Part shown: positions 19,942 through 46,859 of the stretch, piece after piece
Position numbering within the stretch: the stretch's first letter is position 1
How the letters are laid out: each line of letters starts with the position of its first letter
Source of the DNA: Acidobacteriota bacterium
GTDB lineage: Bacteria; Acidobacteriota; Terriglobia; Acidiferrales; UBA7541
DNA: 64,000 nucleotides
Direction: 5' to 3'
Assembly (NCBI GenBank): GCA_013289695.1
Contig: JABCZK010000019.1
Coordinates: 1 to 64,000 of the forward strand
Notes under the pieces: generated by a model
Told to the model about the DNA's origin: nothing
Seen by the model: the letters and a program-made list of their open reading frames with translations, nothing else
Database searches by the model: none
Made by a program: the position numbers and the translations under genes

Positions 19942-20619
19942 TTAGAGTACGACGCTGATGGAAACGCGCGTATCGGGATAATACGGGTTGTACAGGTAAT
20001 ACCCGCCGTCAATGTAATCAACGTACACGTCGTCGGTGTAGTACCAGCCCACCGGCCACGGCTGCACAAATCCGAACCAAAACCCGCCGTACTGAAAGCG
20101 CGAATATCCTCCGACCATCTCGGGTTGGCTGATGACGAAAACGTGCTCGCGGCCGAAATTGGCGCGGAAGCGATCGTCAGGTATGCGAGCGCTGCCTCGG
20201 GCGCTTAGGCGCAGTGCCGGCACCGCGCGTTGCCTCTGCTCTTCGGCCGGAGTCCGCTGCGCATGTTGCTGGTTATTCGATTTGGCCTGCTCTGGCTGGC
20301 CCTTCGCCTCTTGCTGTTTTTCAGGCTTGGCCGCATCCTGTTTCGCCGACTTGGTGTCCTCTTGTTTCGCGGGTTTGGCTTCTTGCTGTTTTTCAGGCTT
20401 AGCTGCTTCCTGTTTCACCGGCTTGGTCTCTTCTTGTTTCGCGGGTTTGGCCTCCGGTTTGTTTTCAGGCTTGGCTGCTTCCTGTTTCGCCGGTTTGGCT
20501 TCTGGCTTGTTTTCAGGCTTGGCTTCCTGTTCGTGCTGCTCTTGACGTGCATAAGCACTCGCAGTACTGCCGAGTAGCAAAAGCAACGCCGCTGTGCTGA
20601 GAACTCCGAATCGTTTCAT
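19942..20619 (-). CDS. Secreted Lys/Pro/Glu-repeat protein with a C-terminal Tyr-rich domain
   Basis: The 225-residue product has a signal peptide ending SAYARQ. A low-complexity middle (about 31-115) is built from repeats of the type EAKPAKQEAAKPE, followed by a compact C-terminal part with GGFWFGFVQPWPVGWYY, DDVYVDYIDGGYYLYNPYYP. That tail resembles the short YXO-type domains common in periplasmic acidobacterial proteins. The repeats form a highly charged extended linker. GGAGG lies eight bases before the chosen ATG. Probably periplasmic or envelope-associated; function unknown. Confidence 0.7.
   Translation of the reverse strand: MKRFGVLSTAALLLLLGSTASAYARQEQHEQEAKPENKPEAKPAKQEAAKPENKPEAKPAKQEETKPVKQEAAKPEKQQEAKPAKQEDTKSAKQDAAKPEKQQEAKGQPEQAKSNNQQHAQRTPAEEQRQRAVPALRLSARGSARIPDDRFRANFGREHVFVISQPEMVGGYSRFQYGGFWFGFVQPWPVGWYYTDDVYVDYIDGGYYLYNPYYPDTRVSISVVL
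20275..20529 (-). repeat. Imperfect tandem repeats encoding the KPAKQE linker
   Basis: The coding strand shows recurring units of about 48-60 bp that encode variants of AAKPENKPEAKPAKQE. Identical GCTTGGC/TTTCAGG stretches recur several times on the plus strand. Such a tract can expand or contract by slippage and would change linker length only. Confidence 0.7.
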
Positions 20620-29822: not shown

Positions 29823-30605
29823 TTAGAGGGCGGTCGAGACCGCGGTGCCGGCGGCGGCAAACACGGAGGCCATTTCGGCTCGCGCGAGCGGGAGGAAGCG
29901 TTCGACGACGCGGGCATCGAACTGCGTGCCGCTCGCCTGCAACAGGCGACGTTCGGCTTCCTCGAACGGCAGGCCCTGGCGGTAGGGCCGCGAGGAAACC
30001 ATCGCATCGAAGGCGTCAATCACGGAGACGATGCGCGAGCCAATCGGAATTTCCTCGCCTTGCAACCCGCCGGGATAGCCTTTGCCGTCGTAACTTTCGT
30101 GGTGGTGAAGAATGATTAAGCTGGCGCGCTCCATTCCCGGAACCTGGCGCAGCACAGCCCAGCCGTACTCGGGATGCTTCTTCATCAGCTCGTATTCTTC
30201 AGCAGTCAGTTTTGCTGGTTTGTTCAAGATGGCATCGGAGATGCCGATTTTTCCGATGTCGTGCAGCAGCGCCGCAACTTCGATGTCGCCCAAATAGCTT
30301 TGCTCCAGGCCAAGCTCGCCTGCAACGTGCAGCGCCCATTCCGCCAGGCGCGTGCTGTGTACTCCTGTATTCAAATCCTTCAAGTCCAGCAGTTGATTGA
30401 ACGCGCAGATCAAAGAGCTGCGCAACGCGCCAATCTGTTCTTCCATTTGCTTTACGTGAACACCGGCAGAAACCCACGGCATGGCGGTTTTCGGAGCGGC
30501 GCCTCCGGAAAATATGGCGCGCTCGGCGGCTTCACCGATTCGTGGAACCGGATTGAAGCCGCCGCTCGCTAGTTGCATGTCGTTCGCTGGCGTTGCCATT
30601 TGCAT
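29823..30605 (-). CDS. HD-GYP domain protein (c-di-GMP phosphodiesterase)
   Basis: The 260-residue protein carries an HD-GYP domain from about residue 60 on: His83, HDIGKIG (115-121), His144, the HHH at 167-169 and DGKGYPGG (173-180) followed by EEIP. These are the residues that bind the metal site and degrade cyclic di-GMP. The N-terminal 60 residues are unstructured; no receiver or sensor domain is seen. It ends near the S8 protease gene on the same strand (9 bp gap), so it may be transcribed as the last gene of that operon. Confidence 0.85.
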   Translation of the reverse strand: MQMATPANDMQLASGGFNPVPRIGEAAERAIFSGGAAPKTAMPWVSAGVHVKQMEEQIGALRSSLICAFNQLLDLKDLNTGVHSTRLAEWALHVAGELGLEQSYLGDIEVAALLHDIGKIGISDAILNKPAKLTAEEYELMKKHPEYGWAVLRQVPGMERASLIILHHHESYDGKGYPGGLQGEEIPIGSRIVSVIDAFDAMVSSRPYRQGLPFEEAERRLLQASGTQFDARVVERFLPLARAEMASVFAAAGTAVSTAL

Positions 30606-30614
30606 TATTTCATT

Positions 30615-31994
30615 CTACTGGAGCAAGCCCTGGATGGGATTGTAGGCCGATAAAGATCCGTAGACATCCAGCCGTCCGTTGCCCATGTTCAGGCCGATCC
30701 ATTTCGCGTGAGCAATGGCCCACGACGCTTGATTCTGGCTGGTTGTGGATTGCATGTTCACGAGCAAGGACGCGGTTCCGGCGACCATCGGCGAGCTGAA
30801 TGACGTGCCCCATCCCGCGGCATACGTCGCGAAAGGATACGTGGTGATGACGCCTTCGCCGGGCGCGGCGACCCACACGATCTGATTGCCGTAATTCGAG
30901 AACGTGGAACGCTGGTCTTGATTGTTTGTCGAGGCCACGCCCATCACATTCTGCAATCCGGCCGGATAAACCATCTCCTGCTTGCCGTCGTTGCCGGAGG
31001 AAGCCGCAAGAATCACATTGTTGCTGTTGGCATAGTTGATCGCGGTGCCTAATTCGGTCGAACTCGTCGTCAAGTCGAAGCTCATGTTGATGACATTCGC
31101 GTGGTTCTGCACGGCGTAGTAAATCGCCGCGAGGATGTTCGAGAGCGATCCGTTTCCGTTCGCGCTGAAGGATTTCAGCGGCAGTAGTTTCGCGGTCGGC
31201 GCGACCAGGTGAATCACGCCCATCACCATGGTGCCGTGTCCGAACGCCGCGTACTGAGATCCATCCAGCATCGCGGCCGTGTGCTGATCGAGCATCGCCG
31301 CGGTGTGTTGGTTTACGTAGGCCGCAGCGCAAGTCTCACAGGGCGGCGGAGCGGACATAGATATATCGTTCAGTTCCGATCCGCCCGGCTGGTTCCGCGT
31401 AAAGTCATAACCGGCAAGCAGCACACCCTGCAGTGCTGGATGGTTGGGATCCACGCCCGTGTCTATGTCCGCAACTATTCCTGCGCCGCTCACATTGAAA
31501 ACGCTGTGTGCTTGAGCAACGCGAATAATTTGGGCCGCGGGCTGATTCACATATCCGTGTGTAACCGAAGTCCCGTAGTAGTTGACCGGAATGGTGTCCC
31601 ACAAACCCTGCGGGGCGGTGGACGCAGTGGTCTGGTTATTTTCGTTCGGTGGAATCATGAGACTCTGGTCGGGTTCGGCATCGAGAATTCCGGTTACCAG
31701 TTTCAGCACGTCCGCGAGCAGTTGCGCCAGCAAACCCTGCGCCGGCCGCACCAGAAATAGCTGCCCAACGTTTCCGTCCAGATTGCCCACGACGGTGCAG
31801 CCGTTGGATGAGCAAGCGTTCTGCAGTCCCGCTCGGCCCAGAGTTGTCCGGACGATCACTCCCTGTTGCTGATTCTGACCGGTCAGCACCTGGCTGACGG
31901 TATTGAGCAGGCCGCCCAAGAGTCCTTGCGCCCTAGCTGGCTGGCCCCAGCATCCCAGCGTTAGAAGTATAGAAAGTCCGATTAGACGCCTCAT
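30615..31994 (-). CDS. Exported S8 (subtilisin-like) serine protease
   Basis: The 459-residue protein has a signal peptide ending QPARAQ and a ~140-residue N-terminal region that may act as a pro-domain. The catalytic triad is Asp178 (VADIDTGVD), His253 (FGHGTMV) and Ser398 (GTSFSSPMVAG), with the oxyanion Asn in AASSGNDG. The segment HTAAMLDQHTAAMLDG just before His253 is a tandem 8-residue duplication. The ATG at 31994 gives a proper leader and AAAGGAG upstream. It ends the run sigma, TPR-CHAT, zinc-finger, S8; the export signal suggests it acts outside the cytoplasm. Confidence 0.85.
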   Translation of the reverse strand: MRRLIGLSILLTLGCWGQPARAQGLLGGLLNTVSQVLTGQNQQQGVIVRTTLGRAGLQNACSSNGCTVVGNLDGNVGQLFLVRPAQGLLAQLLADVLKLVTGILDAEPDQSLMIPPNENNQTTASTAPQGLWDTIPVNYYGTSVTHGYVNQPAAQIIRVAQAHSVFNVSGAGIVADIDTGVDPNHPALQGVLLAGYDFTRNQPGGSELNDISMSAPPPCETCAAAYVNQHTAAMLDQHTAAMLDGSQYAAFGHGTMVMGVIHLVAPTAKLLPLKSFSANGNGSLSNILAAIYYAVQNHANVINMSFDLTTSSTELGTAINYANSNNVILAASSGNDGKQEMVYPAGLQNVMGVASTNNQDQRSTFSNYGNQIVWVAAPGEGVITTYPFATYAAGWGTSFSSPMVAGTASLLVNMQSTTSQNQASWAIAHAKWIGLNMGNGRLDVYGSLSAYNPIQGLLQ

Positions 31995-32121
31995 GATTCG
32001 CCGTGCTCCTTTTAAGTGTCGCCCAGTAGCCGATGTGCCGTGAAGCTGTCGCTCTTGTATCTTGGTACGGGCGACCAACCTCGAACAATGGTACAAGCGG
32101 CTACTTTCCGCACTCACCGCG

Positions 32122-32829
32122 TCAATCTTTAGTTCTAGTACCCTTTTTCTTGATTCCGGATGTCTTTCTAATGCTTTTATTTTCAGCAATGTGCGTGGAA
32201 ATCTCTGCCGGGTTGATCACTGGTTCGACCAGCTGGAGACTTACCTCTCTCCCCGCGGGCAGCCTTACCACTAGCCGAAAACTCTCTTTCAGTTCGCACT
32301 CAATCTGGAACTCGCCGAAGTCGCTTGTGACCGATTCGGCCAGTATCTTTCGTCCCTTCAATAAGGTAATCGGCACCGCCGCCAAGCGCTCGTCAGGGTC
32401 GGCTGCGTTGAGCACCTGGCCGATCAGAACCACTTTTTCGGAGTCGTTCTGTGGCTCGATTCGGACATCAATCCGGTAGTCACCTGCACCGTAAAGCAAC
32501 TGCTGTGAGGCGCTTGCGGCCGATCGCACTCCGGCCAATAAAGGACCGCGAAGGCTATCGAACAGCAGCGACGCTACCTCCGACTTCGCGTGCCGCAACT
32601 GGCCAGCCGACCGGTTAGCGAATGTGGCATTCACCGTCCGCACGGCGCCTGCCGACGGCGAATAGGCCGACTCGCGCCGCGCAACTTGCTGCAAACGCTG
32701 CCACATGCCCAACTCTTTCGAGCATGTTGTGCAACCGGTCTGTAGATGGCTTTGCATCTCGATCTTTTCGTCCTCGCCAATCACGTTCCGTGCAAAATCA
32801 ACCCACTTTTCCAACGAATAGTGTCGCAT
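32122..32829 (-). CDS. Zinc-finger (anti-sigma-like) protein with beta-sandwich C-terminus
   Basis: The 235-residue protein starts with a helical segment containing His28, Cys33 and Cys36 (SHLQTGCTTC), the putative zinc-finger pattern of anti-sigma factors. No membrane helix follows. Residues about 105-190 (DYRIDVRIEPQNDSEKVVLI, GQVLNAADPDERLAAVPI, SDFGEFQIECEL) look like a carboxypeptidase-regulatory-type beta-sandwich, and the tail is Lys-rich. GGGGG precedes the ATG. Its position 129 bp after the CHAT gene and in the same operon as a sigma factor suggests it inhibits or partners that sigma; it is also a candidate CHAT substrate. Both roles are inference. Confidence 0.6.
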   Translation of the reverse strand: MRHYSLEKWVDFARNVIGEDEKIEMQSHLQTGCTTCSKELGMWQRLQQVARRESAYSPSAGAVRTVNATFANRSAGQLRHAKSEVASLLFDSLRGPLLAGVRSAASASQQLLYGAGDYRIDVRIEPQNDSEKVVLIGQVLNAADPDERLAAVPITLLKGRKILAESVTSDFGEFQIECELKESFRLVVRLPAGREVSLQLVEPVINPAEISTHIAENKSIRKTSGIKKKGTRTKD

Positions 32830-32958
32830 CCCATTCCCCCTAAATTGATATCCCTACCTTGCCCAAAGAACTGCCCCGCCACCCAATAGCGCCTTCAACT
32901 CATAAGGGTGGGCACCTGCTGAAAAAATATAGGGGCATCGAAAAAAAATAGCGTGACG

Positions 32959-35826
32959 TCAGACGGGGGAAACCTTGCCAATCAGCGTGAAGGGGGCCCA
33001 GTGATAGGGATGGGGGTAGCGTGCGCGCAATGCAATCATCGCGCTCCGCAGAGCGGCGGCGTTGCCAGCCCCGTCCTGGAGGCGCCGGTAGAAAATAGCC
33101 ATAAAATCCGCGGTGCTCTGGTCGTGAACGTCCCACAGAGTCAAGAGCAGCGAGTGTGCTCCGGCATAAAGAAGTCCGCGTATCAGGCCGAGCAGTTCGT
33201 CTCCGGGAGTAACTACGTTCCATCCCGTCGCGCATCCGCTCAACGTCACCAGTTCAGCATTCAACTTGAGCTGGTAGAGGTCGTAGAGATTCAGGTACGC
33301 GTCGCCCAATCGAATCCCGGAAAACATTGGATTGTCCTGCCGGAATTTGCCATGCGTCGCGATATGAATCAGCCTGCTTTGCAACCCTTTCTCGCGCAAC
33401 TCCTGCTCGTTGGCTTGCGCGCCCAACAACAATTCCGAATCAGGCACGATCTCCGCAACCGCGCGAACTTCCTCCAGGATCAGCGGCGCGCGCGCATCGG
33501 GAATCCCCAGAACAAGAGACCGACCGCTGGTGTGCGCCGGCTTTTCCTGGCAGTGCGCAAAAATACTGGCGCTCGGCGCATAAGAAATTGTGAAGGAATC
33601 GATCAGGTATCCCGTATCGTCCATCAAAGCGTGGAACGGAAGATAGTGCAGTACGCCGTGCGGCACGATGATCAGGTGTCGCGCGGAAATGTGCGCGCGA
33701 ACCGGCGCGAACACTTCTTCGTGAAGCTGGCGCAAGTGTGCTTGCACGACGCCCAACATTGATTTTTCAAACGTCCGCGCATAGTCCGCGCCCAGCTTGA
33801 ATTTCGATATTTGGAAATGCAGCACGCGCAGCAGGTTGATCACCCGCGACAGCGGCGTCAGCGGTACGATTTTCAATCCTTCGTGCGTCACCACGGCGGC
33901 AATGAACTGATCCTTCAGGCTGAAATACTCGACCAGCGCAGCATCCGGCGGCATGCTGGCGCGAATCGTGGCCAGCGATCTGATTGCCGGTCCGTGGCTT
34001 GCGCTTTCCGATTGCGGCATTTCCCGCAGCACGTGCAGCAGCTCGTTTTCGTGCGCCAGAGCCTCTTTCTGGAGCTTTTCGATGCGCTCGGGCGACGGCT
34101 CTTCCGCGCGCAACTGCTCAATTTCGATGCGCCGGTAATACCAGTTGAGCTCCTCGCGCTTTTCGCGGATGCGGCGCACCAGGTCGCTCTGTCCCGCGTC
34201 AGCCGGCCTGATTGCCGGACCGGAGCGCATCAGAAGTTCCGCCAGGCTGCGCGACTTGGCCATTTCGATATAACCGAACGACTCCTCCGCCCCATCCGGC
34301 CTTTCCGCGCGAATCAGGCAAAGCTCGACCAGGCTCTCGTAAACCTCCAGCCGATTTTTCATGAACGCGATTTTTAGTTCTTCGCCGTGCAAGCTGCTGC
34401 GCAGCGTTTCCAAGGATTCTCGCGCCTTCTGGCAGGAATCGTAAGCGCCGGAAAGGTCGCCGGAAGCCTGCTGAATCTGCCCCAGCAGGAAATGCGCCTG
34501 ATAGTGGAGCACGGGAGCTTCCAAACGCGCGAGGCGTTCGATCGCGCGAGACGACTCCGCATGTGCGGCCTCCAGCTCGCCGGTTCGCAGAGAGAGCCGA
34601 GCGAGCAGCAAGTGGCAAAGGACGGCCTTGCTGGGCAGGAAGGAGCCATCAAAAAATGTAGCCGCGCCCGCACAGAGCCGTCGCGCTTCAAACAAGCGGC
34701 CTTCGTTGTAAAGAACCACGGCTTGGTACAAATCCATCAGCCACGGCCACACCAGATTTTTCTCGTTGACAAATTTCGCCCGCGCCTGCGCAAACAATTC
34801 CAGCGAACCCAGCGCCTTTCCCATCTGGCTGGAAGCCATCGCTTCATAAGCCTGGCACTTCGCTTCCTCGTAACCCATGCCCAGCTTCTGGAAACGCAGA
34901 TAGCCTTCGTGCGCCGATTCCTTCGCTTCACTGCTCAGATTCAATTCCAGATAGATTTCCGAGAGATCCAGATAGCAGAGCGCCAGCACGTGCGCGTCCC
35001 CATTTTTCTCGCACTCCTCGCGCGTGGCACGCAGCATCTCGATTGCCCGGCTGTATTCGCCGCGCAGATAATAAAGGTAGGCAATGTTGTAATCGCTTTG
35101 CGTCACCAGCAGCGTCATGCCGTGGCTAAGGCACATTTCCCGGGCGCGCTGGTAAGTCGCGAGCGCGCGCGGAAAATCATTCAGTGTAATCAGGCACACC
35201 GCCATGTTGTAGAGCGCCACCGCCAGCCCTTCGGAATCGCGAAAAGGCAGCAGCATCTCATAGGCGCGTTCGTAGCACGCCAGTCCTTCCTCGAAACGGT
35301 CCTGCCGGTGGTAAATATTCCCAAGATTGATCTCCACGTGCGCCCAGCGTTTGTCGTCGCCCAATTGCCGGAAGATATTCTTGGCGTCTTCCGCGGCTGT
35401 GAATGCCTGGTCGTATTTTCCCAGCAGGATAAAAGGCTGAATGGACGGAATCAGTGTGCGCGCTTCTTCCTCCGCGTTGCCAATGTCGCGAAAGATGTGC
35501 AAAGCGTCGGCATGAAAATCCAGCGCCTGCTGATTCTCTCCCAGCATGTAAAGAGCGTTGGCTTTCGAGCGCAAACTGCGCCCCAGCGCCGCTCGATTGC
35601 GCAAGCGTCGCGCGATCGCCACGCTCGCTTCCGCCAAATAAAGCGCCGCGCGAGCGTTTTCGCGCAATTTGCCGCGCACCACTTCATTTAGTTGCTGCAC
35701 CACGCGGTCGTTCAGCAGCCGCGGATGGGCCGCAATGAATTTGTTGCGGCTGGATTCTGTCGCGAGATTCGCCAGCTCGCGCAGCAGCTTCTCGGAAAGA
35801 GGGTGTTTCTTGGTTTCCGGCTTCAC
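32959..35826 (-). CDS. TPR-CHAT caspase-like protease
   Basis: The 955-residue protein has an array of tetratricopeptide helices (about residues 40-480), a helical linker (about 520-610), and a C-terminal CHAT domain (about 630-955). The catalytic pair is His825 (HIATHGKF) and Cys865 (LSGCATGW). The domain continues with GDELLGLIRGLLYAGA, LLLTLWDVHDQSTADF and the final HPYHWAPFTLIG, so it is complete. CHAT enzymes are caspase-related cysteine proteases. The GTG start at 35826 overlaps the sigma gene stop (GTGA), with AGGA five bases upstream, which indicates translational coupling; a longer in-frame start at 35871 is less likely. Confidence 0.88.
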   Translation of the reverse strand: MKPETKKHPLSEKLLRELANLATESSRNKFIAAHPRLLNDRVVQQLNEVVRGKLRENARAALYLAEASVAIARRLRNRAALGRSLRSKANALYMLGENQQALDFHADALHIFRDIGNAEEEARTLIPSIQPFILLGKYDQAFTAAEDAKNIFRQLGDDKRWAHVEINLGNIYHRQDRFEEGLACYERAYEMLLPFRDSEGLAVALYNMAVCLITLNDFPRALATYQRAREMCLSHGMTLLVTQSDYNIAYLYYLRGEYSRAIEMLRATREECEKNGDAHVLALCYLDLSEIYLELNLSSEAKESAHEGYLRFQKLGMGYEEAKCQAYEAMASSQMGKALGSLELFAQARAKFVNEKNLVWPWLMDLYQAVVLYNEGRLFEARRLCAGAATFFDGSFLPSKAVLCHLLLARLSLRTGELEAAHAESSRAIERLARLEAPVLHYQAHFLLGQIQQASGDLSGAYDSCQKARESLETLRSSLHGEELKIAFMKNRLEVYESLVELCLIRAERPDGAEESFGYIEMAKSRSLAELLMRSGPAIRPADAGQSDLVRRIREKREELNWYYRRIEIEQLRAEEPSPERIEKLQKEALAHENELLHVLREMPQSESASHGPAIRSLATIRASMPPDAALVEYFSLKDQFIAAVVTHEGLKIVPLTPLSRVINLLRVLHFQISKFKLGADYARTFEKSMLGVVQAHLRQLHEEVFAPVRAHISARHLIIVPHGVLHYLPFHALMDDTGYLIDSFTISYAPSASIFAHCQEKPAHTSGRSLVLGIPDARAPLILEEVRAVAEIVPDSELLLGAQANEQELREKGLQSRLIHIATHGKFRQDNPMFSGIRLGDAYLNLYDLYQLKLNAELVTLSGCATGWNVVTPGDELLGLIRGLLYAGAHSLLLTLWDVHDQSTADFMAIFYRRLQDGAGNAAALRSAMIALRARYPHPYHWAPFTLIGKVSPV

Positions 35827-36434
35827 GCGAATCCTGTTTCCAGCAGGCGTTTGCGCAGTCGCTCCAGGCACCGCTGCCGGATGAATCCGATTGAGCCCAC
35901 CGCAATCCCCAGCGTCGCGGCAATTTCCTGATACGGTCGCACCGGCTCGTCATAGAAAAGCATGCGCACCAGTTGGCGGCAGCGCGGCGGCAACTCAGCC
36001 ATGGCCTGCCGCAAACTTTGCTCGTCTTGCGCCTCCCGCAAAATGTCCTCAGCGCGGGACGGAGTGCTCTTCTGGAATTCCTTGGCGGCCGGATCCAGAA
36101 CTTCCGTGCGTTGTTGCTGTTGTTTCCGATGAAAGCATTTATGCGCAGTGACCTGCATGATCCATTTCGGCAGTGCCTTCACTTTGCGCAATTTAGGTAG
36201 TTCCGACAAGAGATCCAGGCAGACCGCCTGAAAAATGTCCGTCGAATCGTCCGCGGAGAATCCGTACTTCACGGGGATCGAAAAAATGAGGTTCTTATAC
36301 TTGAAGATCAGTGCGCACCAGGCCTCTTCACTGCCTCCGATGCATTCACGGACCAGGCGCGCGTCTGGCCAGGCCGCGCGCACGTCATCGTGCGCCGGAG
36401 TTTTTCGGGCAGCGTTGCGGCTCAGGCTCGCCAT
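35823..36434 (-). CDS. ECF-like sigma-70 family RNA polymerase sigma factor
   Basis: The 203-residue protein has region 2 (about 25-95: LVRECIGGSEEAWCALIFKYKNLIFSIPVKYGF, DIFQAVCLDLL, KALPKWIMQVTAHKCF) and region 4 (about 140-200: LRQAMAELPPRCRQLVRMLFY, YQEIAATLGIAVGSIGFIRQRCLERLRK). Regions 1 and 3 are absent, as in ECF sigma factors. Its ATG follows directly on the stop of the binding-protein gene (TAAATG), and its own stop overlaps the CHAT start. There is no own ribosome-binding site, so it depends on translation of the upstream gene. Confidence 0.85.
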   Translation of the reverse strand: MASLSRNAARKTPAHDDVRAAWPDARLVRECIGGSEEAWCALIFKYKNLIFSIPVKYGFSADDSTDIFQAVCLDLLSELPKLRKVKALPKWIMQVTAHKCFHRKQQQQRTEVLDPAAKEFQKSTPSRAEDILREAQDEQSLRQAMAELPPRCRQLVRMLFYDEPVRPYQEIAATLGIAVGSIGFIRQRCLERLRKRLLETGFA

Positions 36435-38183
36435 TTATTGCACGTAAAGCTGTTCGATATTCCACAGCGCGTAAGGAACCAAAATGGCCGGGCGAAAGTT
36501 TCCCACACGATTGGCGGCACCCACTAATATATTGGGGCTCACCAGGCAAATTATCGGCAGGTCCTCGGCGACGATTTCCTGCACGCGGTCGTATAAATTC
36601 TTGCGCTTGGCATAGTCCAGAGTGACGAGCTGCTGTTGCATCAAGCGATCCATCTCGGATTCCCACGCGGTGGCCGGCTTTTCCTGGCGCGGATGCCACA
36701 GGTGAGTTTCGCCGCTGGATAGCCACACGTTCATTTCCGACGTTGGATCGGCATCGCCGCTGACCAATCCCATTACTGCCGCTTCATAGTTGTACGTATT
36801 GGTCAGCCGGTCCACCAAGGCGTGAAATTCCAACGGTACGACCTGCACCGTCATTCCCAATTGGCTCAAATCGTCTTGAACAATTGTCGCGATTTTTGTC
36901 CGCTGCGCATTCGAGGAACTGGTGAGGATCGAAAATTCCACGGAGTTGCCGTGCGGATCCACCAGGGCGCCATCGCTCTTCCAGGAGAAGCCCGCGGATT
37001 CGAGCAGCTGGCGCGCCTGTTCCAGCGAGCGCGCCGGATGCGCAATTTTCTCGTCCAGCCATAACTTGTTTCCCGGCGTCACCTGATCCCAGAGCGGAGT
37101 CGCGCGTCCGTTATAAACCAGGCGGACGATTCCCGCGCGGTCAATCGCCGCCGAAACAGCCTGCCGGAAGCGCAAGTCCTGAAACCAAACCTGCTTCTTG
37201 GCAATTTCGGGAGGCCCTTGCGCAGCCAGATCGTTCATATTGAAAAACAAAAAATTGTATTCCAGCCCCGCGCCCAGATCGTCCAGATGATAGCCCTTCG
37301 TCGCTTGCTGCTTCTGCAGCACCGCGAAATTGTCCGCGCTGAACCGGCTGAGCACGTCCGTATCTCCGGACTGGAAGCGGATGACCTGCGCGTCTTCGCT
37401 GGGCACGAACAGAAAAACAATCTCGTTCAAATATGGCAGTTGGTTTCCGGCGCGGTCAGCCTTCCAATAATATGGATTGCGCTCCAGCACCACGCGTTGC
37501 CCCGCAATGTATTCCTTCAAACGAAATGGGCCGAGCCCGGCGAATTGGCTGGGCGGCATGGAAAGACTCCACGCCCGAGAAAACGTGCCATCGCGGTAGC
37601 CGCTCTCCAGCAAATGGCGCGGCAAAATGGCGATGCTATCGAACAACCGTTCGGCCGCGGCATAGGGCTGCGCCAATTCAAAGCGGACGGCGAAGTCATT
37701 CACCTTCACGACGGTGATCGGCTTTCCGCCCACGATCAGCAGATCTCGCTGTGAAGAATCAACTTTTTCGTCGAGGTAAATCTGAAAACTGAAAATCACG
37801 TCGTCTGCGTTGAACGGTTCGCCATCGGAAAACCGCAATCCGCGGCGAAGTTGCAGCGTGTATTGCCGCCCGTCGCGCGAGACGCTCCACGATTTTGCCA
37901 GCGCAGGTTCAGTCTTCAGTGACTCGCGATTGATGTGAATCAAATCAGCGGTGAGGCAACGAATCACGTCGCGTGAAGGTTCATCCAACGCCAGAGCGGG
38001 ATTCAGAGTTTTCGGTTCCGAACGCAAAGCAATCACGAGCCTGCCGCCCGCGTGGCCCGGAGTACCGTCGGCGATCATCCGGTCGTCGCTAGCGTGCGAA
38101 GGGAGGGCACGCGCGCCCGCGTAGGCGCACGAAATCGCCACGATCAACACGACGCACGCCTTAGCCAGCCGAATTCTCCTCAC
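36435..38183 (-). CDS. Peptide-type ABC transporter substrate-binding protein
   Basis: The 582-residue protein is a family 5 solute-binding protein of the DppA/OppA type. It has an export signal (about 1-26), GGRLVIALRSEPKTLNPAL, LAKSWSVSRDGRQYTLQLRRGLRFSDG, and a late region FRQAVSAAIDRAGIVRLVYNGRATP, all family signatures. It captures peptides or nickel-like or sugar ligands in the periplasm; the substrate is not certain. It is the last importer gene and its stop codon touches the sigma start. Confidence 0.87.
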   Translation of the reverse strand: MRRIRLAKACVVLIVAISCAYAGARALPSHASDDRMIADGTPGHAGGRLVIALRSEPKTLNPALALDEPSRDVIRCLTADLIHINRESLKTEPALAKSWSVSRDGRQYTLQLRRGLRFSDGEPFNADDVIFSFQIYLDEKVDSSQRDLLIVGGKPITVVKVNDFAVRFELAQPYAAAERLFDSIAILPRHLLESGYRDGTFSRAWSLSMPPSQFAGLGPFRLKEYIAGQRVVLERNPYYWKADRAGNQLPYLNEIVFLFVPSEDAQVIRFQSGDTDVLSRFSADNFAVLQKQQATKGYHLDDLGAGLEYNFLFFNMNDLAAQGPPEIAKKQVWFQDLRFRQAVSAAIDRAGIVRLVYNGRATPLWDQVTPGNKLWLDEKIAHPARSLEQARQLLESAGFSWKSDGALVDPHGNSVEFSILTSSSNAQRTKIATIVQDDLSQLGMTVQVVPLEFHALVDRLTNTYNYEAAVMGLVSGDADPTSEMNVWLSSGETHLWHPRQEKPATAWESEMDRLMQQQLVTLDYAKRKNLYDRVQEIVAEDLPIICLVSPNILVGAANRVGNFRPAILVPYALWNIEQLYVQ

Positions 38184-38214
38184 GCATCAACTCTTAGCAG
38201 AGATTTCCCGATTT

Positions 38215-39249
38215 TTACAGCGGCACGGACTTGTGAAGTTCCTGCAGGGCATCGGCGGCTGCGTAAAACACCACGAACAGTGGAATCAACAGCAGAGCGG
38301 GCAGGAACATCCACCAGTATGAAGAAAGAACCGAATACTGCTGCAGCGAAGATAACAGCGCGCCCCAGCTGGGCATCGGCTCGCCAACGCCCAGCCCTAG
38401 AAAAGTGAGAGTCACTTCCGCGAGAACATACTGAGGGATGAGGAGCGTGATTTGCGTGAGCAGCACCGCGTAAGTCTGCGGAAGCACATGCCGCCGCAGC
38501 AGGTACGCGTCGGAAGCTCCGAAACCGCGCGCTGCGAGCACAAAATTGCGTTCCTTCGCGCTAAGCACCACGCCACGAATCAGGCGCGCAGGACGCGCCC
38601 AGCCGATCAGGCCCATCACCGAAATGAGCAGCAGGAAAACCTGCCATTGCGAAATGTGCAGGGGCAGCGCTGCTCGCACCGCGAACAAGAGATAGAGCCA
38701 GGGCAACGCGAGAAACAGTTCTCCGCCGCGCATCAGAAGTTCATCAATCCATCCGCCGTAGTACCCGGCGATTCCGCCCGCAAGGATTCCGATAGCGACC
38801 GAAAGAATTGCCGCGATCAGCCCGGCGAGCAGAGAAATCTGGCTGCCATAGAGAAACCGCGACAATTGATCGCGGCCGTATCCATCTGAACCCATCAGGA
38901 ATATGCGCGCGGGCCTTGCAACGCCGAACAAATGCGCGCGCGACGTGAAGACGCAGGCGATTTTGTAAGGTGCGCCGAGTACGAACCAGCGGAGCGGATA
39001 GGGCTGATCCGAACCCTGTGCAGAACTCTCAGCGCTTTGGCCTGAATCGCCCGGACCGTAAACGAAGGGACGAATGTGAAAAGTTCCACCGGCATCCACA
39101 AAATGAATAGCGGTTGGCGGCGCGAACGGTGTGTCGCGATCCTGGGTCGCGAAATCATACGGAGCGAAAAAGCCGGCGAAGAGTACGACACAACAGAACG
39201 CCGCTAATGCGACGACCGGCCACGCGAGTTTGCGCCGTTGCGTCAGCAC
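38215..39249 (-). CDS. Peptide-type ABC transporter permease (DppC-like)
   Basis: The 344-residue permease has a cytoplasmic N-terminus, a first helix at about 12-32, a long periplasmic segment, and five further helices. The EAA loop is visible near RNFVLAARGFGASDAYLLRRHVLPQ. The GTG at 39249 starts one base after the stop of the preceding permease, with GGATGG upstream; the longer upstream reading belongs to the other permease. It pairs with the DppB-like protein to form the channel. Confidence 0.85.
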   Translation of the reverse strand: MLTQRRKLAWPVVALAAFCCVVLFAGFFAPYDFATQDRDTPFAPPTAIHFVDAGGTFHIRPFVYGPGDSGQSAESSAQGSDQPYPLRWFVLGAPYKIACVFTSRAHLFGVARPARIFLMGSDGYGRDQLSRFLYGSQISLLAGLIAAILSVAIGILAGGIAGYYGGWIDELLMRGGELFLALPWLYLLFAVRAALPLHISQWQVFLLLISVMGLIGWARPARLIRGVVLSAKERNFVLAARGFGASDAYLLRRHVLPQTYAVLLTQITLLIPQYVLAEVTLTFLGLGVGEPMPSWGALLSSLQQYSVLSSYWWMFLPALLLIPLFVVFYAAADALQELHKSVPL

Positions 39250-39250
39250 G

Positions 39251-40213
39251 TCAGTCCATCCGAATCCGCGGATCCGTAGCGAAAAGCAATGCGTCCGCGA
39301 CGAGGTTCCCAGCCACCAGAAAAACAGACGAGAGCATAACCGCGCCGACAACCACGTAAACATCTTTCGCCAGTATGGCATCCACCAGCAAAGGCCCAAC
39401 CCCTGGCCAGCTCAACACCATTTCCACAAGCAAAGAGGCACTTAGCATCGCAGCAATCGAATATCCGAAAAGTGTAATCAGGGGATTGGCGGCAACCGGT
39501 AGCGCATAGCATAGGAGCACACGGCGTTCCGGAATCCCGTGCGCGCGCGCGGCACGCACGAAGGGAGCTTCCAACACTTCGATCATCGCCGAGCGCACAT
39601 GCCGGACCAGCGGCGGCAGAGTCGCGAGCACCAGCCCGAGTGCAGGCAAAAAAAGATGAATGGCGAGATTCTTTACTTTCCCGGCAACGCCCAGGTCTTC
39701 GAATCCGGCGGACATCATTCCGCCCGTTGGAAACCATCCCGTGCGCACAGCCACCAGCAGCAGCGCGAGAAACAAGACCAGATCCGGCACAGTAAGCAAC
39801 GAAGAAGTCAAAATTCCGCCGGCACGGTCGCTCCATTTTCCGCGCCGCGCCGCGCTCCATATTCCGAAGGGAATCGCGAGCAACCATGCCAGCAGCAGCG
39901 AGGTTCCGGTCAAGAGCAGAGTATTGCGCGCGCGCACGGCCAAAAGCGGCGCAACCGGCGTGCCGTATGCAAAAGAAGTTCCAAAATCCCCGCGCCAAAC
40001 AGAACGCAGCCAATGTTCGTAGCGAATCGGCAAGGGTTTATCGAGGCCGTATTGCGAGCGCAGTGCGGCAACGGTATGCGCGGAAATCTGTGGGTTCAGA
40101 CGGATCGGCGTAAAAAAGTCCCCTGGCGCCAGTTGCAGAATCGCAAACGAAAAAATCGAAACTGCGAAGAGCAGGAGCGTCGAGTGCACGATTCTTCGCG
40201 CAAGGTATCTCAT
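39251..40213 (-). CDS. Peptide-type ABC transporter permease (DppB-like)
   Basis: The 320-residue permease has the DppB-type N-terminus MRYLARRIVHSTLLLFAVSIFSFAILQLAPGDF, and the family segment RSQYGLDKPLPIRYEHWL, followed by five helices and the EAA-like PFVRAARAHGIPERRVL. The ATG is eight bases after the stop of the upstream ATPase gene; the longer ORF reading extends into that gene and is rejected. Confidence 0.87.
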   Translation of the reverse strand: MRYLARRIVHSTLLLFAVSIFSFAILQLAPGDFFTPIRLNPQISAHTVAALRSQYGLDKPLPIRYEHWLRSVWRGDFGTSFAYGTPVAPLLAVRARNTLLLTGTSLLLAWLLAIPFGIWSAARRGKWSDRAGGILTSSLLTVPDLVLFLALLLVAVRTGWFPTGGMMSAGFEDLGVAGKVKNLAIHLFLPALGLVLATLPPLVRHVRSAMIEVLEAPFVRAARAHGIPERRVLLCYALPVAANPLITLFGYSIAAMLSASLLVEMVLSWPGVGPLLVDAILAKDVYVVVGAVMLSSVFLVAGNLVADALLFATDPRIRMD

Positions 40214-40221
40214 GGCGGCGC

Positions 40222-41064
40222 TTACGCGGACCGCTCGAGCAGGATCGATTGCACGGAGCGCACACTGGCGAGAAGTTCCCTGGTGTAAGAATGCTCGGGC
40301 GATGCAAACAGATTCCGAGTGCTCTTCCACTCCACAATCCTGCCCAAGCGCATGACCGCAACTTCGTCGGCAAACTCGGAAACCAAACGCAGATCGTGCG
40401 AAATGTGCAGGAAGCTCAGCGAGTGCGCCGCCTGCAGCTCCGCCAGCAATTTCAGAATCAAAGTCTGGTTCGCTGCGTCGAGATTCGCAAGCGCCTCGTC
40501 CAGAATCAGCAGATGCGGGCCGAGTGCGAGGGCTCTGGCGATCGCGACGCGCTGGCGTTGGCCGCCGCTGAACTCCAATGGCCGTTTGCGCTCCCATGCG
40601 GGGTCCAGTCCGACTTGCTCCATCAGTTGTAACGCTCGCGCACGCCGCTGCGATTTCGTCCCCTCGCCCTGAATCAGCAGCGGCTCGGCGATAATCTCGC
40701 AGGCAGTCAACCGGGGGTTCAGCGCGGATGACGGGTCTTGAAAAATGAGTTGAACTTCGCGCCGCATCGAAAAAAGTTCCTTCCCGCTGAGTGCCGCCAA
40801 ATTCGTTCCTGCGAGTTCGACGGTTCCATTCGTCGCTGGTTCCAATAAGGCGATGCACCGCGCCAAACTGGACTTCCCGGCGCCAGACTCTCCCACCACC
40901 GCCAGCGTCTTACCTGGAAAAATCGTCAGGGAAACATCCTGAAATGCATCGACCGCAATCTTCGTGTGTGAAAACGGCCGCCGTTGCAAGTATTGTTTGC
41001 CCAGGCCGGAGACGCGCAGCAACGGCTCGAGCTGGCTGCCATTCGATCGCGGCCCGGGATTCAT
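40222..41064 (-). CDS. Peptide-type ABC transporter ATP-binding protein (DppF-like)
   Basis: The 280-residue ATPase has a Walker A (GESGAGKSS), Q-loop (FQDPSSALNPR), signature (FSGGQRQRVAIARAL), Walker B (LLILDEALANLD) and His switch (HISHDLRLV). The ATG at 41064 has AGGAG six bases upstream and is preferred to an in-frame start inside the upstream gene. It energises import together with the second ATPase. Confidence 0.88.
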   Translation of the reverse strand: MNPGPRSNGSQLEPLLRVSGLGKQYLQRRPFSHTKIAVDAFQDVSLTIFPGKTLAVVGESGAGKSSLARCIALLEPATNGTVELAGTNLAALSGKELFSMRREVQLIFQDPSSALNPRLTACEIIAEPLLIQGEGTKSQRRARALQLMEQVGLDPAWERKRPLEFSGGQRQRVAIARALALGPHLLILDEALANLDAANQTLILKLLAELQAAHSLSFLHISHDLRLVSEFADEVAVMRLGRIVEWKSTRNLFASPEHSYTRELLASVRSVQSILLERSA

Positions 41065-41105
41065 GCTCTGCTCCTGTCGTTCTGGCATCGCGGCGCAATA
41101 AACAG

Positions 41106-41930
41106 CTACGTGACCATCTCGAAATCCATGTCTGCGGCAACGCTCGCCGGCGCCGCGGTTCGCAGCATCGCCCGCGTACAGGCATGGGAAGGATTCCGAT
41201 AGAGTTGCTCGAACGGTCCCCGTTCCACGATCCGGCCGTTGGCCATCACCATCAAACGGTCCGCGAGGCTCGCCTGAACTTCCGGCGCGTGGCTGATCAG
41301 CAAAATCGAAATTTGTAATTCCCGCTGCAATTCCCGCAATAACGCCAGAATTTCGCACTGGCTGCGCGCATCGAGCGAAGCCGCCGGCTCGTCTGCAATT
41401 AGCAGCGCCGGTTTGCAGGCAAGCGCCTGCGCCAGGACCACGCGTTGCCGCTGCCCTCCGCTCAATTGGTGCGGATACGCCGAAGAGATCCGTCGGACGT
41501 CAGAAAAGCCAACGCGCGCAAGCGCCAATTCCGCATCCGCGCGGCAGCGCTCCCATTTACAGTCGTTGTGCGCGTGAATCACTTCCGCGACCTGATCTCT
41601 TATTTTCATTACCGGGCTCAGTGCGAGCTCGGGTTCCTGGAACACCAGCGAAATTCCCGCTCCGCGGATTGCGCGCAGCGAACTTCGTTCCTTCGAGAGC
41701 AATTCTTCGCCGCGAAACTGGATTGAACCCGAGACATCGGCCTGCTCCTCCGAAAGCAAGCCGAGCAAAGCGAGTGCCATGCTCGTCTTGCCGCACCCTG
41801 ATTCGCCCATTAGGCCCAAAACTTCACCCTCGCCGATTTCGAAGCTCACTTGCTGCACGGCGTGGTGCCGGCTCGGGCCAGCCCCGCGGTAGGAGACATC
41901 CAAGTTTTTTACTCGAAGCAAAACTTCCAT
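41106..41930 (-). CDS. Peptide-type ABC transporter ATP-binding protein (DppD-like)
   Basis: The 274-residue ATPase has Walker A (GESGCGKTS), Q-loop (FQEPELALSP), signature (LSGGQRQRVVLAQAL), Walker B (ALLIADEPAASLD) and the His switch (LISHAPEV). The ATG at 41930 is preceded by GGAAGG; a further upstream start at 41996 is possible. It is the first gene of the run that continues through the importer to the sigma, CHAT and S8 genes. Confidence 0.88.
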   Translation of the reverse strand: MEVLLRVKNLDVSYRGAGPSRHHAVQQVSFEIGEGEVLGLMGESGCGKTSMALALLGLLSEEQADVSGSIQFRGEELLSKERSSLRAIRGAGISLVFQEPELALSPVMKIRDQVAEVIHAHNDCKWERCRADAELALARVGFSDVRRISSAYPHQLSGGQRQRVVLAQALACKPALLIADEPAASLDARSQCEILALLRELQRELQISILLISHAPEVQASLADRLMVMANGRIVERGPFEQLYRNPSHACTRAMLRTAAPASVAADMDFEMVT

Positions 41931-42387
41931 CAAGACCTTCCCGGGTGTTTTCCAAGCGCAACATTTGCCAGCCAGCGCGAACTGCAACGAGCGCATCGCA
42001 AGCGTATTTGGGCGAAACCGGGCCCAAGTCGCTCGCGAGGAGACCTGTCGTAGGCTTCAGTTATTAAGGTAGGGATGCACTGCGCAGGTGTCGATGGGCC
42101 GTTGGCTCTGGTAGCCCTGTAAGTTACTGGTACTAAGGTACTAAGGCGATGCTAGGTCGTGAAAAATAGCGGCTCGTCCCGCCAAAAACCAAGGCGCGGC
42201 TCCATGCTTGCTCGTACCAGAAACCGGCGTGCGTCCAGTCAGGTATGCCGCCATTTTCACATCGCGCACAGCGACGCCGGCCGCGCTCCCTGCCGCTGGC
42301 CGCTCGGCTCTCCGGGGAGGCGAACACACCATAAATAAGGATAGAATCCAGCTCTTGCTTCCGTTCGAGCGTTTTGGAGGTTTATCA
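41931..42387. other. Divergent promoter region with a small tandem repeat
   Basis: This gap separates the importer operon (minus) from the tolC-emrAB operon (plus). GGTACTAA occurs twice in tandem near 42129-42144. A TAGAAT lies near 42343, about 45 bp before the TolC-like start, and could be its -10 element. No ORF is credible. Confidence 0.45.
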
Positions 42388-43728
42388 ATGGCCGCGAATT
42401 TCCGGCATATATTTGTCGTGCTCGTCCTAATTCTGCAGGTATCGCTGCCGTTCGATACTTCCGCGCAGCAGCAGCCGGCGGCCCCGCCCCTACCGCTGCA
42501 GCTCACGCTGCAACAAGCCGTGCGACTCGCGCTTAAGCAAAATCCCCAGCGCGTGATCGCTCAACTTCTCGTTTCCGAAAGCGACCGCAATAGTCAGATT
42601 GCCCGCTCCGCGCTGCTTCCCCACGCGGACATCGAGGGGCAGGCCTTCATCAACCAATACAACGTTCAAAGCATCGAGCGTGCGCCGCAGCGCGCAGGGC
42701 TCGGTCCCTATCAGCTCATCCAAGTCGGCCCTGCGTTTTCGCAGACCATCCTGAACTTCCAGAAAATTCGCGCGTACCAAATCGGCCGCGAAGGCACGCA
42801 CCAAGCGCGCGCCGACGAACAGACCACGCGCGAAATTGTGGTAAACGCCGTCGTGGACCAATACCTGCTCATTCTTAGCGCTCTTGCTACCCGCGACGCC
42901 GCGAACGCACGCGTGGCACTTGCCCAGCGGCTCTACGACCAGGCTGGGGAATTGCAGAAAACAGGAATCGGTTTGAGCATAGACACGGTGCGAGCCAACG
43001 TCGAACTGCAGAACGAGCGTCAAAATCTGATTGATGCCGAAACGCTGACCCATACCACCAAGTACAGCTTGGCCGCGCTGCTCGATCTGCCTCGCGACCT
43101 GGATCTTGAAGTCAGCGACCGCCTCGATTTCTACGACCTTCCGACGCTCGACAAACAAACGCTGCTCGATCAAGCATTAACCGCGCGCCCGGAGATTCGC
43201 TCCTTGAATTCGCAGCAACGCATCGCCAAACTCACGACGGATGCGGCGGGCGAGCAGCGCCTTCCGCAATTGGATTTCGCCGGATTCTGGTTCTATCAGG
43301 GTTCCCGCTTCAATAATGGCATTCCGGCCTACAACTATACCGTCGCTCTTGAATTTCCACTTTTCACCGGTGGCCGCATTCGCGCGGAAGAAGCGCGAGC
43401 CAAGCTCGAAGCGCAGCACGTCGCGGAGAATCGCCGCCAGCTGGAAGCGCAAATCGTGAATGAAGTAAAATCCGCTCTCGATGAACTCAGGGCCGCGCGA
43501 AATTCCGTGGACGTCGCCAATCTTGGTCTGCAGCTGGCGCAGGAAGAAGTGGCTCAGGCGCAGCGCCGTTTTGCGGCCGGTGTCACCACTAACGTCGAAG
43601 TCATCACCGCGCAGGATGAGCTGGCTCGCGCCAACGATAATCAAATCGGCGCGCTTTATCAATTCAATCTGTCTCGCGCGTCGCTGGCACGCGCCACGGG
43701 CCAGGTCGAAGCAATGTACACGAAGTGA
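42388..43728 (+). CDS. TolC-family outer-membrane efflux protein
   Basis: The 446-residue protein has a signal peptide ending TSAQQQ and two OEP repeats typical of TolC (about 30-230 and 245-440). The pattern LTLQQAVRLALKQNPQ is the usual start of the first repeat; FPLFTGGRIRAEEARAKLEAQ marks the second. It forms the trimeric outer-membrane duct for the adjacent emrAB genes. TGGAGG precedes the ATG. Confidence 0.87.
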   Translation: MAANFRHIFVVLVLILQVSLPFDTSAQQQPAAPPLPLQLTLQQAVRLALKQNPQRVIAQLLVSESDRNSQIARSALLPHADIEGQAFINQYNVQSIERAPQRAGLGPYQLIQVGPAFSQTILNFQKIRAYQIGREGTHQARADEQTTREIVVNAVVDQYLLILSALATRDAANARVALAQRLYDQAGELQKTGIGLSIDTVRANVELQNERQNLIDAETLTHTTKYSLAALLDLPRDLDLEVSDRLDFYDLPTLDKQTLLDQALTARPEIRSLNSQQRIAKLTTDAAGEQRLPQLDFAGFWFYQGSRFNNGIPAYNYTVALEFPLFTGGRIRAEEARAKLEAQHVAENRRQLEAQIVNEVKSALDELRAARNSVDVANLGLQLAQEEVAQAQRRFAAGVTTNVEVITAQDELARANDNQIGALYQFNLSRASLARATGQVEAMYTK

Positions 43729-43743
43729 AAGGTGAACTAGATT

Positions 43744-45051: not shown

Positions 45052-45060
45052 AGAAGCGCA

Positions 45061-46704: not shown

Positions 46705-46859
46705 CCCGCGCGCATTCCGGCCGTTGACTTTCGTAGCGTCGGCGTCCCGCCGGCCGCATTTCTCTTCCGTCCAACCATCCGCTCGTCCCGCACCTTCCGT
46801 GCTCACATTGCAGTTTCTTGAAACTCATTCATCCGGTGTAATGTTGCGCATCGTCGCCC

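Follow-up and report, generated by a model that had tools for sequence, protein, structure and literature searches.

A ten-gene unit of a soil Acidobacteriota bacterium appears to contain a sigma factor whose activity is gated by a protease. The unit lies on the minus strand of a 64,000-nucleotide stretch of contig JABCZK010000019.1 (GenBank assembly GCA_013289695.1). We call this whole stretch the window; it covers the opening 64 kb of a contig of 82 kb, and the draft genome measures 4.5 Mb and is 87% complete. In order, the genes are oppD, oppF, oppB and oppC, followed by those of a solute-binding protein (SBP), an extracytoplasmic function (ECF) type sigma factor (SIG), a TPR-CHAT protease (CHAT), a zinc-finger protein (ZF), a subtilisin-like protease of family S8 (S8) and an HD-GYP domain protein. 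We propose that the core of the unit is a self-amplifying switch in which CHAT would cut ZF, SIG would be freed, and SIG would transcribe the unit. We give this reading, which is built on sequence comparison, a probability of about 0.6. It is carried by the linkage of the genes, an anti-sigma-like domain in ZF, an invariant arginine, the joint loss of the protease dyad and its partners, and a promoter motif with its phyletic link to the unit, all of which are directly established.

Organization of the unit

41106 to 41930, minus strand: OppD-like ABC ATPase (ABC_tran, E 1.3e-29; start ATG 41930)
40222 to 41064, minus strand: OppF-like ABC ATPase (ABC_tran, E 6.9e-32)
39251 to 40213, minus strand: OppB-like permease (BPD_transp_1, E 3.6e-31)
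38215 to 39249, minus strand: OppC-like permease, probable GTG start (BPD_transp_1, E 4.7e-20)
36435 to 38183, minus strand: SBP, family-5 extracellular solute-binding protein (SBP_bac_5, E 2.3e-83)
35823 to 36434, minus strand: SIG, ECF-type sigma factor of 203 aa (Sigma70_r2, Sigma70_r4; TIGR02937, 71.4 bits, cut-off 42.9)
32959 to 35826, minus strand: TPR-CHAT protease of 955 aa, dyad His825/Cys865 (CHAT, E 2e-63, and TPRs; TPR arm at about residues 40-477)
32902 to 32931, minus strand: ECF-like promoter TATATTT-N16-CCCTTAT before ZF (position weight matrix, 36.8 bits)
32122 to 32829, minus strand: ZF, with an anti-sigma-like helical N-terminus (H28-x4-C33-x2-C36), a loop with Arg102 and a carboxypeptidase-regulatory-like beta domain
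30615 to 31994, minus strand: S8 (subtilisin-like) protease, predicted to be secreted (Peptidase_S8, E 2e-31; Sec-type signal at ATG 31994)
29823 to 30605, minus strand: HD-GYP domain protein in a conserved position (Pfam HD_5, E 8.5e-39)
42139 to 42173, minus strand: second, weak promoter motif some 210 bp upstream of oppD (position weight matrix, 15.9 bits)

The junctions are tight from SBP to CHAT. The SBP stop abuts the SIG start (caataaATGgcg, SIG ATG at 36434), and the CHAT start, a GTG at 35826, overlaps the SIG stop (GTGA). The gap of about 130 bp between CHAT and ZF holds a conserved promoter, and a single transcript for the whole unit is therefore not implied. The unit probably forms at least two transcripts, as the CHAT-ZF junction has its own promoter. 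The S8 start at 31994 lies 127 bp past ZF, and the HD-GYP gene begins 9 bp past S8. Among the matches listed for SIG in NCBIfam, the sigma70-ECF superfamily model alone passes its cut-off. An earlier sequence-only reading of this DNA had named the genes from the importer to S8, and all of them were found on the minus strand at the coordinates it gave. Its account of both junctions, of Cys865 as the catalytic cysteine of CHAT and of an HxxxxCxxC zinc-finger motif in ZF also held. It overlooked the HD-GYP gene directly after S8.

Conservation and linkage

A CHAT search of 121 genomes gave matches in 57 at E<=1e-20, many of them over the generic CHAT domain alone, and in 46 at E<=1e-100. We analysed 40 neighbourhoods from among the best CHAT matches and 80 named loci, the best 80 of 557, which came from one scan of species genomes. 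Both samples are weighted to close relatives, and for 11 of the 80 the CHAT C-terminus is identical to one among the 40. For linkage, 113 of the 124 CHAT matches remained once identical C-termini were counted as one, and 71 of these have an intact dyad and flanks of at least 2.5 kb. A partner was counted when it lay on the same strand within 5 kb, positions being taken from domain coordinates.

The sequence-only reading had set down beforehand that linkage confined to this genome would refute it, and the linkage proved to extend far past a single genome. SIG and ZF both stand beside CHAT in 56 of the 71 dyad-intact loci, in several phyla, and at least one of them does in 65. SIG, ZF and S8 occur together in 49. 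Taken singly, SIG is near CHAT in 59 of the 71, ZF in 62, S8 in 53, SBP in 33 and HD-GYP in 27. A chance or neutral neighbourhood of unrelated genes, for which no supporting point was found, has practically no probability left: linkage recurs across phyla with gene order kept, and co-loss and a shared promoter speak against it as well.

By eye, all nine genes from oppD to S8 follow the window's order in 17 of the 40 neighbourhoods, and a further five keep that order as far as the stretch reaches. The order is permuted in two of the 40 (L054, L066), and L052 retains S8 as a fragment only. In 22 of the 40, an HD-GYP homologue is part of the cluster. The tight junctions recur too: CHAT overlaps the preceding gene of the cassette or begins within 3 bp of it in 44 of 66 cases, SIG overlaps SBP or lies within 32 bp of it for 33 of 50 SIG genes, and the HD-GYP start overlaps the preceding cassette gene or lies within 96 bp in 31 of 32. 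No open reading frame in 120 loci (L033-L152) matches two of SIG, ZF, CHAT, S8, SBP and HD-GYP above 25 bits. Second S8 genes adjoin the unit in L061, L064, L065, L089 and L078, and the copy in L078 has its own promoter motif.

The order SIG-ZF-CHAT-S8, mostly without the importer, is found in Chloroflexota, Rubrobacter (Actinomycetota), Chthonomonadales (Armatimonadota), Pyrinomonadaceae and a metagenome-assembled genome of Comamonadaceae. The Rubrobacter loci L120 and L126 hold SIG, a beta-domain protein, CHAT and S8. The coupling to an importer that the sequence-only reading had described thus stands for Acidobacteriota but not in general, as most loci of other phyla carry the core without it, which indicates that the core works without an importer. 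The importer and HD-GYP seem to have joined an older core in Acidobacteriota.

The TPR-CHAT protease and natural loss of its dyad

The AlphaFold2 model of TPR-CHAT has a predicted local distance difference test (pLDDT) score of 88.7. The closest structure to it is 8eey, an entry of the Csx29 complex; Csx29 entries and separase come first, and DdvA ranks 24 and 26. These matches fit a regulatory protease with a TPR-like arm. The Csx29 family model NF041237 scores 51.4 bits on CHAT, below its cut-off of 300. A second, distant CHAT protein is encoded in the window's own genome (G000:C37:23101-23943) and is 34% identical over the CHAT domain.

Both the His and the Cys are kept in 117 of 124 CHAT rows, and three rows are cut short at one or both positions. 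The catalytic His is lost in four proteins, L057 (R/W), L062 (Q/C), L067 (E/C) and L095 (Q/S), two of which (L057, L095) have lost the Cys as well. On a CHAT tree of 84 proteins, built by a quick method, these represent at least three independent losses. SIG, ZF and the beta domain are absent from all four dyad-less loci, and a sensitive scan found no remnants of SIG or ZF in them. S8 with an intact triad and HD-GYP are kept in all four, S8 being on the opposite strand in L095. A full importer occurs among them in L067 only, and L062 holds a short SBP remnant.

We compared these four loci with 74 intact ones, all with flanks of at least 2 kb. A beta-domain partner lies within 5 kb in 66 of 74 intact loci versus none of four dyad-less loci (p 3.5e-4; this and the other Fisher p-values are optimistic, as related genomes share descent). 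SIG lies within 5 kb in 61 of 74 versus none of four. The promoter, scored at 14 bits or more by the matrix described below, is present in 36 of 47 intact loci versus none of four (p 0.005). In G020, whose sole CHAT match is dyad-less, no ZF at E<=1e-8 and no SIG at E<=1e-25 were found genome-wide. In G031, SIG and ZF stand beside another, intact CHAT copy (L061). In G041, ZF stands beside a second CHAT copy, and a partial SIG is on a third contig. Loss of cutting ability goes together with loss of the sigma arm.

This pattern bears on a different account, in which CHAT or S8 degrades SIG itself and no anti-sigma factor is involved, as reported for ECF54 (PMC8999054, section 3.3, as far as that text was available). 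That published proposal favours it, but the conserved carboxypeptidase-like partner has an anti-sigma-like N-terminus. The intact dyad also pairs with the beta-domain protein more often than with SIG (66 versus 61 of 74), and ten intact loci hold the beta domain without SIG. We regard direct degradation of SIG as improbable.

The anti-sigma-like protein and its arginine loop

ZF of the window matches no Pfam family at E<=1. Among 75 ZF homologues, CarboxypepD_reg is matched in 20 and zf-HC2 in eight (E<=0.01). An AlphaFold2 model made with these 75 sequences (pLDDT 86.5, predicted template modelling score 0.58) has helices at 6-13, 19-30, 34-55 and 60-75, followed by a C-terminal beta sandwich. 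In a profile search of the PDB, the N-terminus matches RsiW (E 9e-5), 3hug (E 4e-4), which we take to be RslA, and DdvA (E 5e-4). The ZF profile also matches the CHAT-domain chain of 8rot and 8rw5, entries titled DdvA (E 0.008). ZF proteins of other phyla, mostly without zinc ligands, match RskA (E 0.0014), DdvA (E 0.0015) and RsiW (E 0.004) in the same kind of search. A fold search against the PDB gave weak matches, mostly beta sandwiches and none at E<=0.001, and was less informative than the profile search. Hydropathy reveals no clear membrane segment in ZF, with two of 90 proteins marginal. About 35% of class I anti-sigma domains (ASDI) are soluble according to the available part of PMC7406223. 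ZF has the ASDI feature of a helical domain related to RsiW and RskA that is encoded beside an ECF sigma factor. By sequence, ZF looks like an anti-sigma factor.

Strong ZF matches (at least 161 bits) occur in 19 of 61 genomes, namely 18 of the 21 with CHAT, and G012, where the promoter motif and, right after it, the ZF gene lie at a contig edge. The CHAT genomes without a strong ZF match are G007, whose CHAT is 34% identical, G016, which is 55% complete, and G020, whose CHAT is dyad-less. In the remaining genomes of the 61, ZF matches are weak and partial. Three ZF-family genes lie together at G031:C122:3044-9660, on a contig without a CHAT match among the matches listed.

Between the helices and the sandwich, ZF carries a loop of the form F-D-S-x3-P-x3-G-x-R-S. 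It is modelled as coil (residues 92-108) at lower confidence, with pLDDT block means of 81 and 72. Over the 75 homologues, Arg102 is invariant (75/75), and D91 and G100 are kept in 72 and 71. In the wider set of beta-domain proteins, the arginine is present in all 102 matches that have a letter there. The loop is also found outside ZF, in proteins whose replacement domains were named by eye. L054:395-1180 keeps it in a fusion to the beta domain in which a receiver-like domain takes the place of the anti-sigma part. L058:6377-7351 and L059:6382-7473 keep an R-bearing loop, more degraded in L059, with a histidine-kinase-like part in place of the beta domain. The loop behaves as if it were a transferable cleavage site for CHAT. 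Cutting after arginine is a specificity known for clan-CD proteases, and a conserved, flexible and portable arginine loop suits such an enzyme.

The promoter motif

The gap between CHAT and ZF, or the gap before ZF in loci with the order SIG-ZF-CHAT, was aligned for 45 sequences including the window. Their alignment centres on TATATTTTT and CCCTTAT, which most of the sequences hold at a constant distance from each other. A position weight matrix (PWM) built from 33 of them finds 52 distinct sites of at least 14 bits in 63 loci, and a shuffled-sequence control gives one match in 709 kb. Of these sites, 39 precede ZF (36 loci), a count that is partly circular because the matrix was trained on ZF sites. 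Four before the opp operon and one before a second S8 are free of this circularity, and eight lie elsewhere. Within 300 bp upstream and at 12 bits or more, the motif precedes S8 in one of 58 cases, and it precedes none of 30 oppF, 28 oppB, 29 oppC, 43 SBP, 50 SIG, 66 CHAT and 32 HD-GYP genes. A scan of the region for sigma-70 promoters gave one match versus a shuffle mean of 3.9.

The exact motif occurs in 24 of 121 genomes, 23 of which are among the 46 with CHAT (p 4.6e-11), and the reversed control matched once overall. G012 is the 24th. In G062 and G067 the exact motif precedes an unrelated gene, and without both the p-value is 6.9e-10; the gene that follows is, by eye, enoyl-CoA-hydratase-like in each. 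The association also holds within genera. In the window's genus, g1, the exact motif is found in six of nine genomes with CHAT versus one of 11 without, this one being G012 (p 0.017). In the sister genus g5 it is found in nine of 14 with CHAT versus none of six without (p 0.014). With up to two mismatches, g1 has 13 sites in 10 of 20 genomes (two matches in the reversed control). Eight of the 13 are at the cassette or a cassette fragment, and the other five have one or two mismatches.

There are 32 exact sites in total. Sixteen were examined closely: four precede ZF, five precede opp operons, one is about 900 bp before S8, and six are elsewhere, one of them (G025, contig 109) shortly before a partial ZF match. 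Solitary copies of the motif (L195, L192, L183, L185) precede, by eye, genes of a NarL-type response regulator and of NusG-like and enoyl-CoA-hydratase-like proteins. In g5, strong sites lie 546-880 bp upstream of oppD, ahead of an extra gene, an arrangement confined to g5 loci. The extra gene in L184 and L187-L189 encodes a small exported-looking protein of about 145-170 aa, a possible additional component; the L184 copy has no Pfam match at E<=0.1. The natural reading of these distributions is that SIG would drive its own unit from the motif.

A proposed protease-gated sigma switch

We infer from these data the binding of SIG by ZF, the cleavage and its site, the recognition of the motif by SIG, and the following order of events. 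ZF, as a soluble anti-sigma factor, would hold SIG inactive. When a cue reaches the TPR arm, the His/Cys protease of CHAT would cut ZF, most likely after the invariant Arg102 in an exposed AGVR|S loop. Freed SIG would then transcribe ZF-S8-HD-GYP from TATATTT-N16-CCCTTAT. It would perhaps also transcribe the importer-SIG-CHAT operon through a second site, which is strong in g5 and weak in the window. Newly made ZF would reset the switch to off, and newly made SIG and importer would amplify it. The circuit of sigma factor, CHAT and zinc-finger protein without CRISPR that the sequence-only reading had suggested agrees with the recurrence of the unit, the anti-sigma-like N-terminus of ZF and the way dyad intactness tracks the presence of ZF.

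Several points weigh against the protease-gated switch. The dyad-loss sample is small, with four rows and three events, and it is compared by the optimistic p-values noted above. Eight of 74 intact loci have no beta-domain partner within 5 kb: in two of these the loop sits in the kinase-like fusion, in L066 ZF is encoded farther upstream, in G087 (L068) a copy lies on a different contig, and the other four are distant relatives. The beta domain occurs without SIG in ten intact loci, and the substrate of CHAT therefore need not always be an anti-sigma factor. The best PDB matches of the ZF profile are to the beta domain (NOMO2, pyrogallol hydroxytransferase), ahead of the anti-sigma factors, and zinc ligands are missing in many ZF members outside Acidobacteriota. 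The role of Arg102 could be structural instead. On the promoter side, to the partial circularity of the ZF sites are added 11 of 47 intact loci without a PWM site of 14 bits or more, and the 300 bp upstream of oppD held no motif of at least 12 bits in any of 30 fetched loci.

Possible input to the proposed switch and other explanations

Two accounts of the outer genes of the unit deserve attention. In the first, which we consider possible but tentative, S8 and Opp are mere scavenging outputs of a nutritional regulon, and CHAT responds to some different cue from inside the cell, for example starvation or protein misfolding. The combination of secreted protease and peptide importer is a natural one for scavenging. 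Copies of the motif precede ZF-S8 and, in g5, the opp operon, and S8 has survived in all four loci from which the sigma arm is gone. A pure output, however, needs neither the tight SBP-SIG-CHAT junctions nor a TPR ladder, described below, that is kept after loss of the protease dyad. A scavenging regulon might also cover more genes than in the window's genus, where most motif sites lie at the cassette or a fragment of it.

The second account extends the protease-gated switch, and we rate it as about equally probable and likewise tentative. S8, outside the cytoplasm, would cut proteins or a pro-peptide, Opp would import the peptides, the TPR groove would bind them, and CHAT would be switched on. 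This would be analogous to the RRNPP systems of Gram-positive bacteria, with a protease-released sigma factor as output. SBP and SIG are closely joined in most loci, as given above, and importer genes stay near even where they are rearranged (L050, L068, L070) or permuted (L054, L066). S8 appears exported in 75 of 83 proteins by a crude signal test, and its D/H/S triad is intact in 82 of 83, the remaining one being cut short.

The TPR arm, of about ten 40-residue repeats, offers a candidate receptor surface. A ladder of N167 (86%), N207 (93%), N247 (80%) and D287 (70%) occupies the same helix-A position in consecutive repeats; the repeat register was assigned by us, and the face is presumed to be concave. 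Conservation is higher at concave than at other non-core positions (p 0.002), but in TPRs it can be structural. The ladder and R86 and R174 are kept in the three dyad-less proteins of the alignment, from whose loci SIG and ZF are gone. The retention of S8 and HD-GYP in all four dyad-less loci, and of the full importer in L067, agrees with a peptide input. Peptide-binding TPRs, among them Rap phosphatases (E about 1e-12), are matched by the TPR profile, as most TPRs would be.

Against a peptide input stand the loci of other phyla, most of which lack the importer, and the four dyad-less loci, with a full importer in L067 only and an SBP remnant in L062. No pro-peptide gene was recognised in the neighbourhoods, in which no systematic small-ORF search was made. 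Family-5 binding proteins take ligands other than peptides too. A peptide input to the switch is a plausible hypothesis. A still more speculative reading joins all parts into one Acidobacteriota signalling route from peptide to protease to sigma factor: S8 would make peptides, Opp would import them, the TPR ladder would read them, and CHAT would cut the portable FDS..P..GVR|S loop. Besides the anti-sigma factor, receiver-like and histidine-kinase-like proteins of some genomes would bear this loop. We lowered its probability slightly because the importer is kept in only one of the four dyad-less loci.

Control of phage defence by a Craspase- or DdvA/DdvS-like circuit is very improbable. In its favour, CHAT is closest in fold to Csx29 entries and separase, DdvA follows at ranks 24 and 26, and DdvS controls a defence island in Myxococcus (available part of PMC12288465). 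But no CRISPR-like array was found in the window, where the sequence-only reading had seen no CRISPR or Cas7-11 gene with the unit, and none of 10 flanking proteins has a PADLOC match at E<=1e-5. The neighbours are efflux, dehydrogenase, peptidase and permease genes, and within the genus most motif sites fall at the cassette itself. S8 and CHAT do match generic subtilase and TPR models of PADLOC. The CRISPR and defence readings are not supported by the array search of the window or by the PADLOC search of the 10 flanking proteins.

Two further features of the window lie outside the unit. A divergent block on the plus strand (42208-48413) encodes an outer membrane efflux protein, an HlyD-type fusion protein and an MFS transporter, and then an amino acid permease. 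At 20303-20518 there is a coding-like low-complexity repeat of seven overlapping 72-nt copies in 24-nt steps.

Comparison with known systems

Peptide sensing by RRNPP proteins (Rap, PlcR, Rgg) combines an Opp importer with a cytoplasmic TPR protein, and exported S8-type proteases process Phr signals in Bacillus. The unit shares the Opp importer and a TPR protein, and the resemblance is partial only. Its host belongs to Acidobacteriota and not to Firmicutes, signalling would end in a protease and a sigma factor, and the receptor would be TPR-CHAT, with no helix-turn-helix family among the Pfam matches of CHAT. It also differs in the pro-peptide, which was not recognised in the neighbourhoods (see above for the scope of that search). 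A peptide-sensing design of this kind is, to our knowledge, unfamiliar from Gram-negative bacteria.

The Myxococcus xanthus proteins DdvA and DdvS are reportedly the subject of a paper by Bernal-Bernal (2024), which PMC12288465 cites and which is said to go with PDB entries 8rot, 8rw5 and 8rlz. DdvA is titled in the PDB as an anti-sigma factor with CHAT, and both the ZF N-terminus and the CHAT model match its entries. It is titled a transmembrane anti-sigma factor, whereas the anti-sigma-like ZF and CHAT are here separate genes and ZF has no clear membrane segment. DdvS is mentioned in the available parts of PMC12288465 and PMC4374960, and DdvA also in the latter.

The sequence-only reading knew of no description of the arrangement. 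This does not hold for its parts, as the DdvA entries contain a 991-aa CHAT-domain protein and the genomic context of ECF54 has been reported in PMC8999054, whose available part cites Huang 2015 and Casas-Pastor 2021 for this group. That context has CHAT, subtilase and carboxypeptidase genes nearby, and control by proteolysis without an anti-sigma factor was proposed. The neighbours of SIG likewise carry CHAT, subtilase and carboxypeptidase(-regulatory) domains. ECF54 is listed there without an anti-sigma factor, whereas the carboxypeptidase-like ZF has an N-terminus like that of RsiW, 3hug, DdvA and RskA. The importer, HD-GYP and promoter of this unit are not mentioned in the available part of that paper.

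In the type III-E Craspase, Csx29 cuts Csx30, the inhibitor of CASP-sigma (available part of PMC10028731). The two systems have in common a TPR-CHAT protease, a sigma inhibitor as substrate (putative here), release of an ECF sigma factor and sigma sites in the own locus. They differ in that no CRISPR array was found in the window and no PADLOC match in the 10 flanking proteins, that the inhibitor is here an anti-sigma-domain/beta-domain protein, and that a secreted protease and an importer belong to the unit. The loop arginine is invariant here, whereas the cleavage site of Csx30 is called nonconserved in the title of PMC11106740.

The gene context of ECF54, Craspase and DdvA are the published precedents, and no paper joining a CHAT domain, an anti-sigma factor and a subtilisin was found in the literature searched. 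New here, as far as the literature seen goes, are the anti-sigma/loop/beta-domain protein as a likely CHAT substrate, the dedicated promoter, and the coupling to secretion and peptide import. ZF is a candidate anti-sigma factor for sigma factors with a reported protease-rich context that were thought to have none. The Csx29-Csx30-sigma switch would be placed beside a wider family, seen here without CRISPR. One arginine, one promoter and natural protease-dead relatives make the mechanism testable. A cleavage loop common to different proteins would serve as a target tag for an activatable protease. If true, the system from peptide to protease to sigma factor would give RRNPP sensing a Gram-negative counterpart and the Csx29-Csx30-sigma switch a CRISPR-free, general form.

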